Source: Mycoplasma iguanae (GTDB lineage Bacteria; Bacillota_I; Bacilli_A; Mycoplasmatales; Metamycoplasmataceae). From it: DNA of 64,000 nucleotides. The notes under the pieces are model-generated. The model ran no database searches. It saw nothing but the letters and a program-made list of their open reading frames with translations, and was not told where the DNA came from. The first letter of the stretch is position 1. Every line of letters begins with the position of its first letter. The position numbers were made by a program, and so were the translations under genes. Positions 15,298-57,520 of this stretch are shown piece after piece. The stretch spans positions 186,001 to 250,000 of the forward strand of contig NZ_CP102734.1 of NCBI RefSeq assembly GCF_024722375.1, read 5' to 3'.

Positions 15298-15790
15298 TTA
15301 TTTATTTTTAACTAAAATTAGTTTTAATACTAAAAATGGTTAATTATGAACTTTTATAGAATCGCAAATACTAAAAATTAATATGTTACTAGATTAAATA
15401 GCATCTAGAAATTAAAATTTATAGTATTAAAAATATTAAAATTTAAATAAAAAATATATCAAATAATGTTTAACATACATAAAAATAAAATTGTTAAACA
15501 GCAGAAATAATCAAAAAAATATCCATAAAATTAAACCTAATTTCACCGGTTTTTATTTTATGGATATTTTTTTAAAATTAGGTGGCGAAAATTCAGTTTC
15601 CTTTTTTAAAATATAACTTTTGTTCATTTTGATGAACTTTTATGAATTAAATAGCATTTTAAGAATTTTTTTTGACTTTTTACATCAATTTTTAAATTTT
15701 TAGGAATATAATTAAGTGAATTATTAGAGACTTTTAGTTCTTTAATAATTATAATTTTCAAACTATTTATAAAAAAAGGAATTTATAAAA
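15298..15790. other. Gene-free AT-rich region before the ascorbate operon
   Basis: No plausible coding frame. It holds a weak hairpin just after nadD (AACTAA/TTAGTT at 15309-15323), a CTAGAT/ATCTAG hairpin (15389-15408), a large inverted repeat at 15513-15573, GTTCAT/ATGAAC (15622-15637), and a TATAAT (15750-15755) that suits the ula promoter. ATGAACTTTTAT and ATTAAATAGCAT each occur twice in it. Confidence 0.6.
15513..15573. repeat. 19-bp perfect inverted repeat
   Basis: AAAAAAATATCCATAAAAT and its exact reverse complement flank a 23-base loop; AAACC/GGTTT inside the loop could extend the stem. A/T runs on both outer sides would let it act as a terminator in either direction, but it lies 216 bases from nadD and 218 from the next gene. 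Confidence 0.7.
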
Positions 15791-16846
15791 ATGAAAAAAT
15801 TTGTAAGAACAATTTTAGGGGACGTTGATCCCTCGGAATTAGGAGTTACTGACTGTCATGATCACTTAATTAAAAATTATGGGCCAGAGGCTCATGAACA
15901 TCCTGACTTTGTTATGTTATCTATTCCTGCTGCAAAAGCAGAAATGGAAGAATATTTAGCAAAAGGTGGAAAAACTATTGTAACAATGGATCCACCTAAC
16001 GTGGGACGCGATGTTCACAAAATGTTAGAAATTGCTGAACATTTTAGAGGAAGAGGTCATATTTTAATGGCTACAGGATTCCACAAAGCAGCATTTTATG
16101 ACAAAGGTGCATCTTGATTGGCTTTAGCTCCTGTTGACGAAATTGTAAAAATGGTTGTTGCAGAAATTGAAGAAGGAATGGATGAATACAACTATAGTGG
16201 ACCAGTTGTAAAACGTTCAAAAGCAAAAGCTGGAATTATTAAAGCTGGTACAGGATATGCAGCAATTGATCGTTTAGAACTTAAATCTCTAGAATCAGCA
16301 GCACGTTCATCGATTGCAACGGGTGCCCCTATCCTAGTACATACTCAATTAGGAACGATGGCTTATGAAGCTGCCCAACACTTAATTGATTTTGGTGTTA
16401 ATCCAAGAAAAATTCAATTATCTCACTTAAATAAAAACCCTGATAAATATTATTATGAAAAAATCATTAAAGAATTAGGAGTAAGTCTTTGTTTTGACGG
16501 TCCTGACCGTGTTAAATATTACTCAGACGCAACTCTTGCAGAAAATATTAAATATCTTGTAGATAAAGGATATCAAAAACATATTACTTTATCACTAGAT
16601 GCGGGTAGAATTTTATATCAAAGAAATTATGGTTTAGAAAAAGGAAAACAAACATTTGGATTAGGATATTTATTCGATCGTTTTATTCCTTTATTAAAAC
16701 AAGTTGGAGTTAGTGAATCAGCTATTGAAGATATGCTTGTAAACAACCCAAGAGAAATTTTAACTTTTGATGAACCTCGAACATATGATGTTTCAAAAGT
16801 TAATCCTAGAGTTTTAGAATTAAAAAAAGAGTTCAAAATAAATTAA
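15791..16846 (+). CDS. Phosphotriesterase-like sugar-lactone phosphate hydrolase
   Basis: 351 aa amidohydrolase-fold protein. Metal-site motifs: HDH in TDCHDHLIKNYG, the bridging Lys in AGIIKAGTGY, His in ILVHTQLG and IQLSHLNKNP, and Asp in LSLDAGR. Close relatives from Mycoplasma synoviae and M. agalactiae were shown to open phosphorylated pentono-1,4-lactones. Here it heads a complete ula set lacking ulaG, so it most likely supplies the lactonase step after ascorbate-6-P import or a related lactone. One UGA-Trp. Shine-Dalgarno AAAAGGA. Confidence 0.9.
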
Positions 16847-26188: not shown

Positions 26189-26573
26189 TGGTGGAGATGC
26201 CGGGAATCGAACCCGGGTCCACACATAAACATATTATTTAAATCTACAGTTTAGTAATTTTTATATTCAACAAATTAAAAACTTAAAATTACAAACAGTT
26301 GTTTAATTTGTCCAGTTGAAGTTCTGCAAAATTTAACTGAGTCCTTTTACATATCCCAATACCACATTGTAGCACTTTGGGAAGAATGCTACAAGACCAA
26401 CCGCTAAATATTAAGCGAAAGAAGGATTTAAGTTAAATGAAGAATTCATTGCTAAAGCGCTGTAGTCTTCGTTTGTTTTTTCTTTTCCATTTAGAAAAGC
26501 CTAGAAGTATTTATGGTTTACCAGACCACTGCATTAAATAATCGCTTATATATGTCGAAACCTTTACACCCCC
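26189..26573 (-). ncRNA. ssrA: Transfer-messenger RNA (tmRNA)
   Basis: Rescues stalled ribosomes with SmpB. The tRNA-like ends pair: 5' GGGGGTG with 3' CATCTCC plus A-CCA, and the T-arm GGGTTCGATTCCC is perfect. The characteristic 5' stretch AAAGGTTTCGACAT is present. The tag frame most likely runs from 26488 to the TAA at 26411-26413 and would encode GKEKTNEDYS...NLNPSFA (25 aa); it resembles the M. pulmonis tag and ends in a hydrophobic degron. The resume codon is inferred. Confidence 0.95.
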
Positions 26574-42352: not shown

Positions 42353-43441
42353 ATGAAAAATATTGATCATGAAAAAATTTTTTCAAGATTAAAAGAATAT
42401 ATGGAAGTACATGGTATTTCACGATATGAAGATGAGGTTGTAGCATTAATTAAGAAAAATACAGCTCAAGCTAATGTTGAATATACAAGAGATGGATTAG
42501 GATCCCTGATTATGACTAAAAAAAGTCATAATCAGGGTCCCAAAATCATGATAAGTGTGCATATGGATGAAGTAGGTTACATTGTTTTAGATATTTTAGA
42601 AAATGGACAATTAAGAGTGCAATCTGTTGGTGGAGTTTGACCTAATGTTGTTGTAGGTTCAAAAGCAAAAGTAGTTACTACAACAGGCAAAGAATATGCA
42701 GGAATTTTTGGTCACACTTCAATTCATATTTTAGAACCTGAAAAAGCTAAAAAAGCTGTTACAAATAAAGATTTATTTGTAGATTGTGGTTTTGATAATA
42801 AAAAGATAGCTGTAGCAGCAGGAGTAGAAATAGGAGATAAAATTTATATCCATGGTCCCACTTTGAGACTATATAACAAAAATCTAGTCGCAGGTAAAGC
42901 AATGGATAACAGAGCTGGAATTACTGTTTTAGATTTTATTATTAATGAATTATCAAATGAAACTTTACCAAACCAAACCTACTTTGTAGCTTCAGTTCAA
43001 GAAGAAGTAGGAACTCGTGGAGCTAAAACTTCTGTAAGTATGATTAATCCTGATGTTGCAATTGCAATTGATACAACAAGTTCATATGATACTTATTTAT
43101 CTGGAACAGGAGAAAATAAATTATCAAAAGGTGTAGCACTTAGAGTAGCTGATAGAGGAACATTAATGGATCCCAAGTTAATTCAATATTTTAAAGATTT
43201 AGCTCAAAAACATAACATTCCTCTATACAAATTTGTAGCTCAAGGCGGAGGAACTGATGCTGCTGAACTACAATTTGGCCGTGGCGGTGTTGCTACAATT
43301 TGCTTGTCAATTCCCCAAAGATATCTTCATTCACCAATTGGTGTTTGTGATTTAGAAGATTTAAAAAATAATATCGTTATAGTTGTAGAATTTTTAAAAT
43401 CATTCGATCAAACCGCACTTGATAGTATTAAGTACAAGTAA
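42353..43441 (+). CDS. M42-family glutamyl aminopeptidase (copy 1)
   Basis: 362 aa. Two-metal peptidase motifs: VHMDEVGY (His70), AMDNRAG, catalytic EE in SVQEEVGTRGA, AIDTTS and the final His in RYLHSPIG. Tetrahedral aminopeptidases of this family trim short peptides in the cytosol. Its paralogue lies at 49756-50847 in the opposite direction; the two share long identical stretches (NTAQANVEY, DGLGSLIMTKK). Shine-Dalgarno GAGGT; TATAAT at 42295-42300. Confidence 0.94.
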
Positions 43442-43445
43442 TATT

Positions 43446-43469
43446 AAAGACACGGAAGTGTCTTTTTTT
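43446..43469 (+). terminator. Terminator after M42 peptidase copy 1
   Basis: Stem AAAGACAC / GTGTCTTT, 4-base loop, followed by T4-5. Confidence 0.85.
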
Positions 43470-43498
43470 AACATTAAATTTTAAATTTAATCATTAAC

Positions 43499-43536
43499 AA
43501 AAAAGAAGCCGCCCAAAGCTTAGAATATGGGCGGCT
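43499..43536 (-). terminator. GC-rich terminator of the ncRNA candidate
   Basis: Nine-bp stem with seven G/C pairs, loop of 12, then TTCTTTTTT on the minus strand; on the plus strand no T-run follows, so it works leftward only. Confidence 0.75.
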
Positions 43537-43766
43537 AAATTATAATAATGTGTTAATCAACACTAGTATTCTTAAAGTTTATATATATTAATAAAAAAGA
43601 GGATAAAACTTAAATAAATATTAAAATAAAAAGGTTATAAATATAAAATAATAAAAACTTCAAACCTAAAATTAGGTAATTATCCATACTGTTGTTTTTA
43701 ATAACAACAAAAATACAAAATAACCATTTTGAATTTTTGCAATAGCCCTAGAAATAAGCTATTGCT
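43499..43766 (-). ncRNA. Candidate structured non-coding RNA (~268 nt)
   Basis: On the minus strand an extended -10 box (TGTTATAAT; hexamer 43772-43777) predicts a start at about 43765. The transcript would run through five perfect hairpins in series: 43739-43765, 43716-43731, 43690-43709, 43664-43677 and 43550-43563. It ends at a GC-rich stem AGCCGCCCA/TGGGCGGCT (43507-43536) followed by TTCTTTTTT. The first stem begins at the predicted start. No reading frame. It does not match RNase P, SRP or tmRNA signatures that I know. Existence and strand are inferred from sequence alone. Confidence 0.55.
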
Positions 43767-43771
43767 TCAAA

Positions 43772-43780
43772 ATTATAACA
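43772..43780 (-). promoter_or_regulatory. Extended -10 box of the ncRNA candidate
   Basis: Minus-strand TGTTATAAT. Same extended form as the box in front of ffh. Confidence 0.5.
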
Positions 43781-44180
43781 TCATTTTTAACAGAAAATAA
43801 CTAATTTTCACCCTGTAAAAAATCATTTTTTTACTAGGTTTTTCCACAAAAAATAAAAAGTTAATTTTTATTATTTTTTTTATTTAAAAAACGATTTTTT
43901 TAGAAAAAATGAAAATTAATTTTTAAAAATAAATTTTGTAAAAAAAGAAAAAAATATTTAAAACTTTAAAATTTGAACAAATTTTTAGACAAAATCAATT
44001 AAAAGAAATAGGTTTTCTACGGCTTATTTCTAACAGAAAATACATCAAAAAATAGCTAAATTATTTAAAGTAAGCATTTGTTTTATTTTTTCTTTTTATT
44101 ATATTTTGCATAATAAAAAGAAAAAAACTGCTTTTTCTCTATTTTTTCTTAAAAAAATAAACTTTTTATATTTTTTTGTG
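43781..44180. other. AT-rich gene-free stretch with a long hairpin
   Basis: No coding frame. Contains TTTTCT/AGAAAA (44013-44040) and a perfect 17-bp inverted repeat with a 7-base loop (44086-44102 and 44110-44126) made of T-rich/A-rich arms. The rest is nearly pure A/T. Confidence 0.6.
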
Positions 44181-44194
44181 TAAAATTGAAACTA
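44181..44194 (+). promoter_or_regulatory. -10 box of a predicted leaderless permease mRNA
   Basis: TAAAAT at 44181-44186, 7 bases before the ATG, in the context GTGTAAAATTGAAA that is shared base for base with gltX. No Shine-Dalgarno. Confidence 0.6.
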
Positions 44195-45579
44195 TGTTTT
44201 TGAAATTTTTAAAATTTGGTGCAAAAGGATCAACCGATGCAAGATTTACTGAAAAACAATTTTTTGCTTTTAGTTTAAATTTTGTGGTTGGTTTTGGTTT
44301 TATTGCCACTATTGGAGATATTGTTAGCTTAGGTGCTTGAGGAATGATTGTTTTTGCCATTACTGCATTTGCAGCAATGGGAACATCATTGGCTTTTGCT
44401 CGAGTTTCTGAAAGATATCCAAATGAATTAGGAGGATCATATGGATATGCTAAAAAAGCTTATAAAAGTAAAATAGCAGCTTTTTTGCAAGGATGAAATG
44501 TTTTATCACAAGTTGTAGTAGGTTCGAATAATACTCCTCTATTTATTGGAGCATTATTATCTTATTTTGATCCGGCTAGATCAAATATTTATAATTTAAT
44601 ATCACTAGGAGTTTTTATTTTTATTATTTTCTTAGTGACATTAGGTTTAAGATTATCAAAATGATTAGTTTTTTTATCTAGCTCTGTTAAATGATTAACA
44701 ATTATTACTGGAATGGTTTTAGTTATTATTTTAGCTGCAAAAGATGGAAATTTTGTAGATAATATATCAAATAATAAATACATTTCTCCGGCAGTAATTA
44801 TTGGAACAAGCTTAACATTTATGTATGCTTTTGGTGGTTTTGAATCACTTGCCGGTTTATCAATGGATGTAAAAACCAAAAAAATTCGTATTTTATTAGT
44901 TAAAGTATTTGCAACAGTGTTTGTTTTATACTTTATTGCTTATCTTGCTTTCTTATTTATCAATGTAAATCGTGATGTACCACTAAACTTTAGAGGTATT
45001 TTCCAAATAAGTTTTGGTGCTACAGGAATTGTTTTATTTACAATTGGGATTTTCTTTAACCGTTTTTCTGCCAGTGTTTCTAATGTTTTATATTATTCAA
45101 AAGTTTTTGCTTCACTTTCTATAGATGGGTATTTACCAAAAATTTTTTCAAAAATAAATGCAAAAGGTCAATACGGAAATGCTTTGTGACTAATTTCATT
45201 TAGTACTTCAATTTCATCTCTTTTACTTTACTTTTTACCTCGATGAATAGGAATTGAAACAGGATTTGATACTTTTATTCAATCAACAACTATTTCTATG
45301 TTTATTCAATTTATTTTAACGATTTGAACTGTTTTATACTTATCAACGCAAAGTAAAATCAAAATTCCTTTTTGGGAAAAAGTACTTTATTTCTTAACAA
45401 TTTTCTTATTAACTTATATTTTATTAATTTTTGTATTTCCCCCAGCATTAGGAGATGCAATTAATTGATCAAATTTATTCGCATTTTTAATTTGATTAGG
45501 AACAATGTTATTAGGATTCTTAATTTCATTCTTTACAACATTACTGAAAAAAGTTCAATTTTTCAAACAAAAACAATAA
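44194..45579 (+). CDS. APC-superfamily amino-acid permease (short type)
   Basis: 461 aa, about 12 membrane helices. After the amphipathic start MFLKFLKFGAKGSTDARFTEKQFF comes helix 1 with VVGFGFIATIGDIVSLG, the Gly-rich substrate segment, and helix 6 with FMYAFGGFESLAGLSMD, a typical APC motif. Substrate unknown. It is distinct from the 40496-42064 permease. Overlaps the foot of its own terminator. Confidence 0.9.
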
Positions 45580-49755: not shown

Positions 49756-50847
49756 TTATTGATATTTAATTTTATCTAAAGTAGTTTGATCAAATACTTT
49801 TAAGAATTCAACCATTAAATCAATGATAGCTTGAATATCTTTTAAAGATGCAACACCAATTGGTGAGTGAAGATATCTTTGGGGAATTGAAATACCAATT
49901 GTAGGTACACCACCTTTACCATATTGAAGCTCTTCGGCATCAGTGCCTCCACCTTGAGCTACATATTTATAAATAGCAATATTATGTTTTTTAGCTAAAG
50001 ATATCAGATATTCTACAAGTTTAGGATCCATTAATGTACCACCATCTGCTACATTAATAGCTACACCTTTACCTAATGTAGGAACTCCACTAATTGCTCC
50101 GTGAGTATCATGAGATGCACCTGTATCAATTGCAAAGGCAACATCTGGTTCGATTAGTGAAACTGCTGTTTTAGCGCCACGTAATCCTACCTCCTCTTGA
50201 ACTGTTCCTACAAAGTAGGTTTGGTTTGGTAGTTTTTCATTTGTTAGTCTTTTTATTATTTCTGAAATAATAGTAACTCCAGCTCTGTTATCCATAGCTT
50301 TTCCACCGACTAATTCAGGGTTATAAAGTCTAATAGTTTCACCAGTAAAATAAATTCTATCACCTGGCTCTACACCTAGTGATTCAGCTTCTTTTTTATC
50401 TTTAAATCCACAGTCAACGAATAATTCTTTCATCGGAACTGCTGCTGTAACTTTTTCTTTTTCAAGAATATGAATTGAAGTGTGACCAAAAATTCCTGCA
50501 TATTCTTTGCCTGTTGAAGCAATTAATTTGGCTTGTGTTCCTACAACAACATTAGGTCAAATCCCACCCACAGATTGTACTCTCAGTTGACCGTTATCTA
50601 AAACATCAAGCACCATAAAACCAACTTCATCCATGTGAGCAGCTAGCATAATTTTTGGCCCTTGATTATGACCTTTTTTAGTCATAATCAGTGATCCTAA
50701 TCCATCTCGTGCATATTCAACATTAGCTTGTGCTGTATTTTTTTTAAGTGCATTAACTACGGCATCTTCATAACGAGACATAGCTTCAATTTCCATGTAT
50801 TCTTTTAAAGCTAAAAACAAATCATCATATTGTTTTTTATCTCACAT
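49756..50847 (-). CDS. M42-family glutamyl aminopeptidase (copy 2)
   Basis: 363 aa, paralogue of 42353-43441. Motifs AAHMDEVGF, AMDNRAGVT, TVQEEVGLRGA, AIDTGAS and RYLHSPIGVAS are all present, so it should be active. The true start is the ATG at 50847, giving MWDKKQYDDLFLAL with a UGA as the second codon; AAAGGAG lies 8 bases upstream. One more UGA follows VQSVGGI. Confidence 0.94.
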
Positions 50848-51013
50848 ACTAAACTCCTTTGTCATTTTTTTATTAGATTTAATTATAAATTAAAACCCTT
50901 TTTAATGTAAAGATTTTTAACCACTAAAAAGCTATAAAAAACAAAGAAATGATTTGTTTTAAAATTATCTATTTATTTAAATAACATTTCAAAAAAAGAA
51001 TAATTTTTTAAAA

Positions 51014-51030
51014 TGTTATAATTTTATACA
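51014..51030 (+). promoter_or_regulatory. Extended -10 box of a leaderless ffh mRNA
   Basis: TGTTATAAT (hexamer 51017-51022) ends 7 bases before the ffh ATG, leaving no room for a ribosome-binding site. Confidence 0.65.
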
Positions 51031-52550: not shown

Positions 52551-53405
52551 ATGTACAAAAAAAGATGATTTTTTTCTTTAGTAGCACCTTCTTTGACTGT
52601 CTTTTCAATTGTAATGCTAATTCCAACAGTTATGGGTATTATTTTGTCTTTTACTGATTGACAAAAAGGAAAAGAATTATATGATAACGGTTGAGTAGGA
52701 TTTGCCAATTATCATAAAGCATTTCAAGATGGTGTCTTTGGCACTTCAATTTGATTTACTTTTGTTTTTTCAATTGTTTGTTTAATTTTAGTAAATTTAA
52801 TAGGTTTTACAATTGCTTTAATGTTAAATAAAGCTTTTTATGGAAAAAATCTTTTCAGAAGTGTTTTTTTTATCCCCAATTTGATAGGTGGTCTAATTCT
52901 AGGTTACTTATGACAATTAATTTTTGATCGTGTCTTTATTGAAATTTTTGGTGGTGAATCCTTAAGACTAAAATCACAAATGGGGGGAATGTTTGCAATG
53001 GCAATTGTTTTTGCTTGACAAATGTCAGGTTATGTCATGATTATTTATTTAGCTGCTTTACAAAGTGTAGATAAAAATCTATCAGAAGCATCCAAAATTG
53101 AAGGAGCAAATAGATTTAGAATTTTTAAAAATGTAACATTACCAGCGGTGATGCCTGCTATTACTGTGTCTGTATTTTTAGTATTAAGTGGTTCATTTAA
53201 AATGTTTGACCAAAATTTAGCTTTAACAGATGGAACTAATAATACAGGACTTTTATCATTCGATATTTATAGTACAGCCTTTAATCCTGCCTATTTAGGA
53301 ACTTATGGAATTGCTCAGTCTAAATCATTTATTTTTACTTTATTAGTATCAGCAATTGCTATTAGTCAGGTTTATATTTCCAAAAAATTCGAGGTGCAGC
53401 AATAA
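52551..53405 (+). CDS. Sugar ABC transporter permease (MalF/UgpA type)
   Basis: 284 aa, six membrane helices. The EAA loop that contacts the ATPase is EASKIEGANRFRIFKNVTLP. UGA-Trp codons are frequent in the helices. Shine-Dalgarno GAAGAGGA. Its stop overlaps the next start by one base (TAATG). Corresponds to the MG188-type permease of the mycoplasma sugar importer. Confidence 0.92.
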
Positions 53406-54289
53406 TGAAATTATTTGAAAAAAAATTTATTTTGGAAAAAGAAAAAAAATCGCCCACTTTAGTAGCTCTAAAAATTACTTTTTTTACTTTTTTAGTAGCA
53501 ATTGCAGTTATCTGAATTTTCCCATTTTTTTTAATGATTAATAGTTCTCTAAAATCTACTAGCGATTTTATTTTTGAAAATGTTTTAAAATTAGCCAAGA
53601 TAGGTCAAGGAGCAAGTCAAAATTATAGCAATGCTTATGTTGCTTTAAATTTTTGGGAGTCTTTTTGAATTACTTTATTAATTACTGTTTTAGCGAACTT
53701 TTTCATCATTCTCTTTAGTTCACTAGCTGCATGACAATTAGCAAGAAATAAGAAATGATATTCAAAAATAATTTTTTATTTGTTTTTAATTGTTATGATT
53801 GTTCCTTTTCAAGCGATTATGTTACCACTTGTTTCTATTATGGGTAAATTACATTTTATGAATATTCCTGGTTTAATTTTTATGTACACAGGTTTTGGAA
53901 TGAGTTTATCAATTTTTATGATGCACGGTTTTTTAAATACAATTCCTGTATCTTTAGAAGAAGCTTCTAAAGTAGAAGGATATAACCCTTTAAGAATTTA
54001 TTTTAAAGTAATTATTCCTTTATTAAAACCTATTATTACTACAATTGTAATTTTAAATACAATGTGAATTTGAAATGACTTTTTATTACCTTACTTGATT
54101 TATCAAAATAATCCTAATATGCCCACAACTACTGTTGTCAAACTATTTACTAGCTTAGTTGGAACATATGGAACTGATTTTAAATCATTAATGGCTGGAT
54201 TAACAATTTTGATTATCCCTGTAGTAATATTCTTTATTTTTGCTCAAAGAAACATTGTAGCTGGATTAACAAAAGGAGCAATTAAATAA
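53405..54289 (+). CDS. Sugar ABC transporter permease (MalG/UgpE type)
   Basis: 294 aa, six membrane helices. EAA loop EEASKVEGYNPLRIYFKVI. The N-terminus is long and basic (KLFEKKFILEKEKK). Pairs with the previous protein to form the channel. One-base overlaps at both ends show a tightly coupled operon. Confidence 0.92.
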
Positions 54290-56040
54290 TGAAAATATCT
54301 AATAAAAACAAAATACTACCTTCTTTTCTAGAAAAAAATTATCAAAAATTATTAGCAGAATCAAAAGATCAAACTGAAGATAATAATGTCTTAGAATTAA
54401 GAAATATTGATAAAGTTTATGATAATGGTTTTCAAGCCATTTTTGGTACTAATATAAAAATTAAAAAAGGTGAATTTTTAGCACTTTTAGGTCCTTCAGG
54501 TTGTGGAAAATCTACTACATTAAGAATGATTGCCGGTTTAGAAGATGTTACAAGTGGTGAAGTTATTTTAAATAATGTAAATGTTACCAACTTAGAGCCA
54601 GCAAGTAGAAATTTAACAATGGTTTTTCAAAATTATGCTCTTTTTCCACATCTAACAGTTAAACAAAATATTTCATTTGGATTAAAATCTAATAAGAAAA
54701 AATTAGGCCAAGGTGGCAAAATTTTTAAACAAATTCTTTTTTTAAAAAATAATTTAAAAGCAAATTTAAATCTTTTGAATAGCATTAAAAATCTTGAAAA
54801 AAGTAAAACAAAAATTATTGCTTTTGAAAAGCATCTAACTAAATTGGAACAACAGTTAGAACAACTTTTAAAAACTCAAACTAATACTTCTACATGAAAA
54901 AGGAAATTCAAGAAATTAAAAATTCAAAAAAATATGTTGGAAAATATTATTGAAATTTCCAAAAATAAAGTTCAATATTATGAAGCAAAAAAAGATTTGC
55001 AAAAACCAATCATTTTAGAGAATGAAAAAATTAAGCAAGAAATTGAAGTATTAGAAAAACAAAGAATTCAACTTGCTAAGAATGATAATTACAAACAAAT
55101 TATTGATCAAAAAGTTGAATTAGTTTCTAAAGTTTTAGGTTTGGAATATTATCTAAATCAAAAACCAGGTGCTCTTTCAGGTGGTCAACGTCAAAGAGTT
55201 GCTTTGGGTAGATCAATTGTAGGAAATCCCACCTTATTTTTAATGGATGAACCACTATCTAACTTAGATGCTAAACTAAGAGCAACAATGCGTACTGAAA
55301 TCCGTAGTTTGCATGAAAAAATTAATGCAGGGACAGTTTATGTAACTCATGATCAAATTGAAGCAATGACAATGGCCGATAAAATCGTTGTTATGGCTGA
55401 TGGATTCGTTTTACAAACTGGAACACCTAGTGATGTTTACAAAAATCCTTCATGTATTTTTGTAGCAGGTTTTGTAGGAACTCCTTCAATGAATTTTATT
55501 TCAGGACAAGTTAAAAATAAAACTTTTGTATCAGATAAAGGATTAGTAATTCATCTAGATTATCCAGATAAAATTCAAAACACTTATGATGGACAAAAAG
55601 TTATTTTAGGAATTAGACCAACTGACTTTGCAGTTGATGAAAATTTTAAAGAAGTTTATAAAGCTATCAAAGTAAAAATAACTCATAAAGAATTATTAGG
55701 TAATGAAATTCAATACAAAGCTTTAATAAAAGTAAAGGAAGAATTTTTAGAAGAAATTATTTTTATTACTAATTCATATGAAAATTATGAAGTTGGAAGT
55801 ATACAAGAAATTTCACCAATTCATTCAAGAGTTCATTTATTTGATCAAGAAACATCAATTGCATTAACTTCAAAATTTAACTTAGAAACAATTAGTGCAT
55901 TAAAAAACTGAATTATTTCAGAGGAAAAAATTCAAATTAGAAGAGAAATTTTAGAAAAATCGAAAAATAAGAAAAAATATTCATTAATAAAAAAACTAAA
56001 AAATCAAATATTTAAAAAGGAAGATAAAAATGAAAAATAA
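54289..56040 (+). CDS. Sugar ABC transporter ATPase with coiled-coil insertion
   Basis: 583 aa, against about 370 for ordinary MalK/MsmK. Walker A GPSGCGKST (68-76), Q-loop Gln114 (VFQNYALFP), signature LSGGQ (296-300), Walker B LFLMDEPLS and H-loop VTHD, then a regulatory OB-type domain. The Walker A to signature distance is about 130 residues longer than normal, because a Lys/Glu-rich coiled coil (near 140-285) is inserted in the helical subdomain. The M. genitalium homologue MG187 is of similar length. A C-terminal basic tail is added too. Confidence 0.92.
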
Positions 56041-57520
56041 TAAATTTAAATGATTAAGTGCATTAACTTTAGCAACAACTCCTGTAGTATTTTTAGCAGC
56101 TTGTGCATCAACTGCTGCTTCGGAAACAAACTCAAAATTATTTGAAGCTATGTCTAAAGATCAATTAGCAATCAATTTAAAAACATCATTAGCTGGTTAT
56201 TCAACAGAAGCAATGGAAATTATTTCTAATAAACAAGAAATTAGTCAGCAATCTAAAGATTTAATTGATGCTTTCAATAAATTTTATGGTACAAAATTAT
56301 CATATACCCAAATTGGCGGATCAACTGATTATGGACAGTTTTTAGCAACAAAATTTGCCAATGGAGTAGGTAATGTTCTGCTTCTAAGCGGCGGATCACT
56401 TGCAGGTTTCCAAGATCAAGATAATATTTTAATTGATACTCCTTCATCTAAAATGCTTGCCAATGAAACTTCAACAATTGGTCAATATGTAGTAGGGAAT
56501 AAAAGATATATGGCTCAAACAATTGAATCATATGGTGTAATTTATAATAGAGATGCTTTCCAAAAAGCTAAAATTACAGTTTTTGAAGGTCAACCTTTTG
56601 AAACAACACAAACAAAGCCTGCTGAATTACCAGCTGATAAACCACAAAACTACAACGGAACTATAAAAGTTGGTGAAACATTATATGTATTTACCGATGA
56701 TTTAAATTTAGAAGGTTGAAAAGCAATCATCAGTCAAGTAAAAAATGCTGGTCTAAAACCTTTTTATACAACTTCAAAAGCTACAAGCGGAAATATTTGA
56801 CCTTTAACTAATCATTTATTAGGTGCAGTAGTTACAGCACAAACCGGTCTAAAACCTTCTAACTTGACAGAATTACAAGATGCTGAAAAAGTTTTAACAG
56901 ATAGTGTAATGCAAGGAATGAAAGACGGATTAGAAATTTATGGTCAAAATGAAACTTATAATAGAAACACTAATACAGTAGATATTGCGATGCAACAAGT
57001 AGCTTTTGGTAGAGAATATGCCATGAGTCAAAATGGTACATGAGCTACGCCACAAATTAAGCAAGCTAATCCAAATGCAAATGTAGGATTTTTACCTCTT
57101 CCAGTATTTGATGCAACTTCAAAAACTTCTAAAATTGTTAAAACAGTATCTCAAAGATGAGGTGCTACAACTTTAGCAAACGATCCAGCTAAATTAAAAA
57201 CAGCCCAATTATTTTTACAATTTTTATACCAAACAAAATCAGGTGCAGAATATGCAGCAAATGAAATGCAATTAAGTACACCTTATGGTCAAGTTTCAGG
57301 TGTAAGTTTAGAAATTAATGATCCACTTTCAAAATCACAATCTCAATATTTAGATAGTGATATTATTGAATCGGTAGATAATTACTTTGTACAAGGGTTT
57401 AATAATCAAAACCAAGTTTTAGTATCAGCTGTTAATTCTGGTTTTGCTAATCCAACTGAAGAAAAAACCAAATTAACTGCTGAGTGAAACAGATTAAAAA
57501 ATAGTGCAACTGATAAATAA
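56030..57520 (+). CDS. Sugar-binding lipoprotein of the ABC transporter
   Basis: 496 aa. Lipoprotein signal with lipobox FLAAC (Cys25), so it is lipid-anchored outside the membrane. The body looks like a cluster-B solute-binding protein (GQFLATKFANGVGNVLLLSGG, YGVIYNRDAFQKA, ISQRWGATT-like segments). The ATG lies inside the end of the ATPase gene. Its place with pullulanase and glucosidase genes suggests maltodextrins or other glucans as ligand. Confidence 0.88.

Follow-up and report, generated by a model that had tools for sequence, protein, structure and literature searches.

A candidate small RNA transcription unit with a G-C-rich terminator in an intergenic gap of Mycoplasma iguanae

Trans-acting small RNAs of Firmicutes, staphylococcal RsaE among them, carry a C/U-rich single-stranded seed that masks the Shine-Dalgarno (SD) sequence, and type I toxin mRNAs of the Fst/Ldr kind are composed of a structured leader, a short hydrophobic open reading frame (ORF) and a terminator. 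In swine mycoplasmas, RNA-seq has yielded 78 putative noncoding RNAs (ncRNAs) in M. hyopneumoniae, 130 in M. flocculare and 72 in M. hyorhinis, in a study that examined sizes of 30–600 nt and found most of them to be 51–200 nt long (PMC4198240).

The locus described here was found in a window of 64,000 bp of M. iguanae DNA (positions 186001-250000 in the genome, which has 688,439 bases and reads with the mycoplasma code, TGA being Trp; positions below are those of the window unless stated otherwise), and it resembles each of these systems in part. With the RsaE type it shares an unpaired C/U-rich stretch, a strong terminator and an intergenic position, although its candidate seed lies within an A+U-rich open region; with the Fst/Ldr mRNAs it shares a structured leader, a short hydrophobic ORF and a terminator, but its ORF lacks a ribosome-binding site. 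Like the orphan ncRNAs of mycoplasmas (PMC4198240), it is intergenic and has neither a credible protein nor an Rfam family, and its predicted size is within 30–600 nt. It differs from them in having a predicted promoter of its own, an unusually strong terminator and a length of ∼268 nt rather than mostly 51–200 nt, and, unlike both these RNA-seq-based ncRNAs and RsaE, it is known from sequence signals alone. Because RNA-seq produced so many putative ncRNAs in the swine species, we consider this a locus of a kind common in mycoplasmas, with unusually clean ends, and not a new class.

Signals bounding the predicted transcript

The original prediction placed the RNA in a gap of about 750 bases between a peptidase and a permease, and the gap indeed measures 752 bp (43442-44193), which makes it the longest intergenic gap in the window by the gene limits set in this analysis. 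The predicted RNA is on its minus strand. To the left is an M42 glutamyl aminopeptidase gene (42356-43441, plus strand), convergent with the RNA, and to the right an amino-acid permease gene (44194-45579, plus strand), whose start looks leaderless, with a TG-N-TAAAAT box ending 8 nt upstream of the ATG. The peptidase gene has a plus-strand terminator (43446-43470) separate from that of the RNA. It also has a paralogue, 68% identical, ∼6 kb away in the opposite orientation (49756-50865, minus strand); in some relatives there are tandem M42 peptidase pairs instead. Within the coding sequence of the first copy there is a perfect 14-bp hairpin, CCCTGATTATGACT-AAAAAA-AGTCATAATCAGGG (42500-42540, plus strand), which has the lowest fold z-score among the window pieces scanned, occurs in a weaker form in the paralogue and was not present in the relatives looked at.

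The predicted unit opens with an extended −10 element, TGTTATAAT (43780-43772, minus strand), unaccompanied by a good −35 element, and transcription would begin 6–7 nt past the −10 box, at 43765 or 43766. Both this box and a start at the foot of an 8-bp hairpin had been proposed, and the two agree with what we see, the predicted start at ∼43765 coinciding with the outer end of a hairpin at 43765-43739. A 12-mer of the promoter, TGTTATAATTTT, is also present at 51014-51030, directly upstream of the leaderless-looking start of ffh (51030), where, provided that this start is correctly placed, it must drive leaderless transcription. Because −10-like boxes in the window are no more numerous than expected by chance, the promoter call rests on placement. 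The genome has exactly two perfect copies of the sequence ATTTYTAACAGAAAATA, each of them in this gap (43783-43799 and 44026-44042, plus strand), and one copy overlies the spacer of the predicted small RNA promoter.

Four hairpins fall within the first 102 nt of the RNA and a fifth lies near its 3′ end, all of them perfect inverted repeats on the minus strand at the positions originally given. The one at the 5′ end (GCAATAGC-11 nt-GCTATTGC, 43765-43739), which is single copy in the window, has 8 perfect pairs and 10 in the fold. It is followed by a 6-bp stem with a 4-nt loop (43731-43716) that is absent from the centroid fold, by a 7-bp stem with a 6-nt loop (43709-43690) and a 5-bp stem with a 4-nt loop (43677-43664) that are also in the fold, and, near the 3′ end, by another 5-bp stem with a 4-nt loop (43563-43550). 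An 11-mer within the 5′ hairpin, GCTTATTTCTA, has only one further copy in the window, at 44022-44032 on the plus strand.

At the other end is an intrinsic terminator (43536-43499, minus strand), whose nine-pair stem (43536-43507) is followed by TCTTTTTT. Its seven G-C pairs are the most among the 113 terminator candidates in the window, as suits a stem earlier described as among the most G+C-rich there, and its stem energy is the second lowest; the heptamer GCCGCCC, of which 0.17 occurrences are expected in the window, is found solely in the two arms of this terminator. Read from the sequence, the strand is fixed by the U-tract at one end, which is on the minus strand only, and by the putative promoter at the other. 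The hairpins alone cannot fix it because the plus strand too folds better than shuffles, and exceeds its own shuffles even more than the minus strand does (z −5.0), since perfect inverted repeats fold on either strand.

Fold statistics, composition and relatives

Compared with shuffled sequences, the whole minus-strand RNA folds with a z-score of −3.5, and the 5′ hairpin and the terminator account for this excess. The 5′ 103 nt reach z −4.0 (0 of 400 shuffles as good) and the terminator folds far better than its shuffles (z about −4), whereas the RNA without the terminator has a z of only −1.5 (35 of 400 shuffles as good) and the middle 124 nt fold no better than shuffles (z +0.65). The arms of the perfect inverted repeats add up to a length of 45 as compared to 23 in shuffles, none of 500 reaching it, and there are seven hairpins as compared to 4.1, with 16 of the 500 shuffles having as many. 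When 2,296 window pieces of 103 nt were scanned, 51 (∼2%) had a z of −3.8 or below, several of them from this very locus. The 5′ domain and the terminator are clearly non-random and the remainder is modest; the term "structured small RNA" in the original prediction thus suits the 5′ third and the terminator but not the middle, which is unstructured and has 11% G+C. Elsewhere in the window, a 24-pair stem, AAAAAAATATCCATAAAAT ... ATTTTATGGATATTTTTTT (15513-15573, plus strand), situated in a 493-bp gap ahead of the gene at 15791, has a z of −4.9 and no Rfam match.

The G+C content of the RNA is 22.4% overall and 18.3% without the terminator, and its body is in the ordinary range of the gaps in the window (12.5–29.2%). 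Known RNAs of this genome have 33.5% (tmRNA), 34.0% (SRP RNA), 41.8% (RNase P RNA) and 55–63% (tRNAs). Raised G+C marks structured RNAs in A+T-rich genomes under the GC-IGR criterion, by which the body of this RNA would not stand out (PMC11109978). Covariance models of Rfam 15 at the gathering cut-off identified no family at the locus, and the best match at lax thresholds, ctRNA_pT181 (26 of 56 bits, E 0.53), was owed to the terminator; with nothing credible at either threshold, the RNA stays unassigned, as it was first called. RNase P RNA, SRP RNA and tmRNA were each rejected as identities for the feature, the genome having its RNase P RNA at genome position 537350, its SRP RNA at genome position 434819 and its tmRNA at window position 26189.

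BLAST searches of 57 relatives, phages and plasmids returned A+T-rich noise or nothing. Two covariance models, one of the whole RNA and one of the 5′ domain, were each built from this single sequence, and among 135 genomes of the family both recovered, at a meaningful score, the locus itself alone; with the whole-RNA model this was also the outcome for 36 relatives, searched under laxer filters, and for 298 genomes from the order, all remaining matches being weak (E 0.18 or worse). In the relatives examined, the peptidase and permease genes are not adjacent, the gap is not syntenic and the gap upstream of the permease is mostly short, and a contig scan with the peptidase as query gave distant loci only. 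The genus is represented by only one species in the genome collection searched, and, as far as can be seen, the RNA appears to be single copy and lineage-specific.

Alternative readings of the locus

The main rival to a functional RNA is transcriptional noise from an A+T-rich gap, in which the terminator serves to insulate the peptidase gene from antisense transcription and the RNA itself is inert. An increase in noise transcription from simplified promoters has been reported for reduced, A+T-rich Mollicutes (PMC5138195), and the locus fits such a picture: the body has ordinary gap composition, the middle has no excess structure, no conservation was found in the genomes searched, and the terminator is ∼30 bp from that of the peptidase gene. 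However, noise has no need of a hairpin exactly at the predicted start, in a 5′ region that folds as well as this one does, and the −10 box is of the extended form, as it also is upstream of ffh. We thus consider noise unlikely, although it is an explanation to be taken seriously.

Less likely than noise, and in our estimation improbable, is a relic or an element that acts as DNA and not as RNA, in which the inverted repeats would be operator sites or the remains of a divergent permease control region that has been rearranged. The fold excess of the plus strand, the two genomic copies of ATTTYTAACAGAAAATA, both in this gap and one over the promoter spacer, and the lack of synteny in the relatives examined would all accord with it, but the hairpins have no common sequence and the terminator is one-directional.

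As predicted, no ORF spans the feature from end to end, but a 25-codon hydrophobic ORF, MDNYLILGLKFLLFYIYNLFILIFI (43687-43610, minus strand), does lie inside it. A ribosome-binding site is missing, its ATG is preceded at a distance of 2 nt by the end of a hairpin, and the ORF is neither leaderless nor close behind an upstream gene, in contrast to most genes in the window that have no SD match. An mRNA for this tiny membrane peptide with a structured leader, similar to those of type I toxins, is likewise less probable than noise and can be given little credence: a structured 5′ region, an unstructured stretch with the ORF and a strong terminator do follow one another in order, but the ORF was judged noncoding on the above features, hydrophobic codons are the default product of T-rich DNA, the peptide has no Pfam matches, and no antisense antitoxin was identified (in what was not a systematic search).

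Candidate pairing seed and biological meaning

The reading that we favor is a free-standing intergenic transcription unit for one small RNA of ∼268 nt (43766-43499, minus strand), with SD pairing as its likeliest mode of action, and we give this reading as a whole an even chance. That the locus is a real minus-strand transcription unit seems quite probable from the signals at its ends; that it is a functional small RNA is evenly balanced. A small regulatory RNA is a probable product because a promoter and a strong terminator enclose ∼270 bases that encode no credible protein. Of the "RNA gene" of about 270 nt first proposed, the extent stands, the promoter and terminator marking a minus-strand unit of ∼268 nt, but the structure is limited to the 5′ third and the terminator.

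Transcription would start at the extended −10 promoter, and the stable hairpin would at once close the 5′ end of the RNA, with an expected protection from 5′-end decay. The long A+U-rich middle (to ∼43564) would stay open and expose UCCUCUUUUUU, and the G-C-rich terminator would halt transcription ahead of the convergent peptidase gene. The likeliest action of such an RNA would be the pairing of UCCUCUUUUUU with SD regions of mRNAs, reducing their translation.

The candidate seed is an accessible pyrimidine stretch, AUCCUCUUUUUU (43604-43593, minus strand), put forward for its accessibility and its SD complementarity. Within it, UCCUCUUUUUU (43603-43593) is the only well-exposed C-containing stretch of the RNA and could pair with SD sequences, and, among the parts of the body that contain C, 43606-43597, within UUUAUCCUCUUUUUUAU, is the most accessible (85% unpaired). 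The motif CCTCTT, which was picked after the sequence was seen, occurs in the middle in 0.4% of composition-matched shuffles. When 40 gene starts were compared, the best complements of the seed were the SD regions at 52551 (−13.4 kcal/mol) and 56030 (−11.9 kcal/mol), belonging to a sugar ABC permease gene and a lipoprotein gene (as named by reading their translations) in what looks like one operon for a sugar ABC transporter. For the middle as a whole, the strongest duplex with 40 gene starts did not surpass that of shuffled controls, 14 of 100 doing as well. Non-significant duplexes thus count against a functional RNA, as do the ordinary gap G+C, the unstructured middle, the failure to find a homologue and the non-enriched promoter motifs. 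A far more specific proposal, that an isolated mycoplasma lineage has a regulatory RNA family of which this RNA is the first member known, pairing through UCCUCUUUUUU at the ribosome-binding sites of the sugar ABC transporter operon (52551-57520) and controlled via ATTTYTAACAGAAAATA at its promoter, we regard as very improbable.

Mycoplasmas often have candidate intergenic RNAs that are not conserved, and this locus adds a candidate, not a principle. Transcription factors are few in mycoplasmas, and a small RNA that had its own promoter and a costly G-C-rich terminator would therefore, in a genome this minimal, be a candidate regulator.
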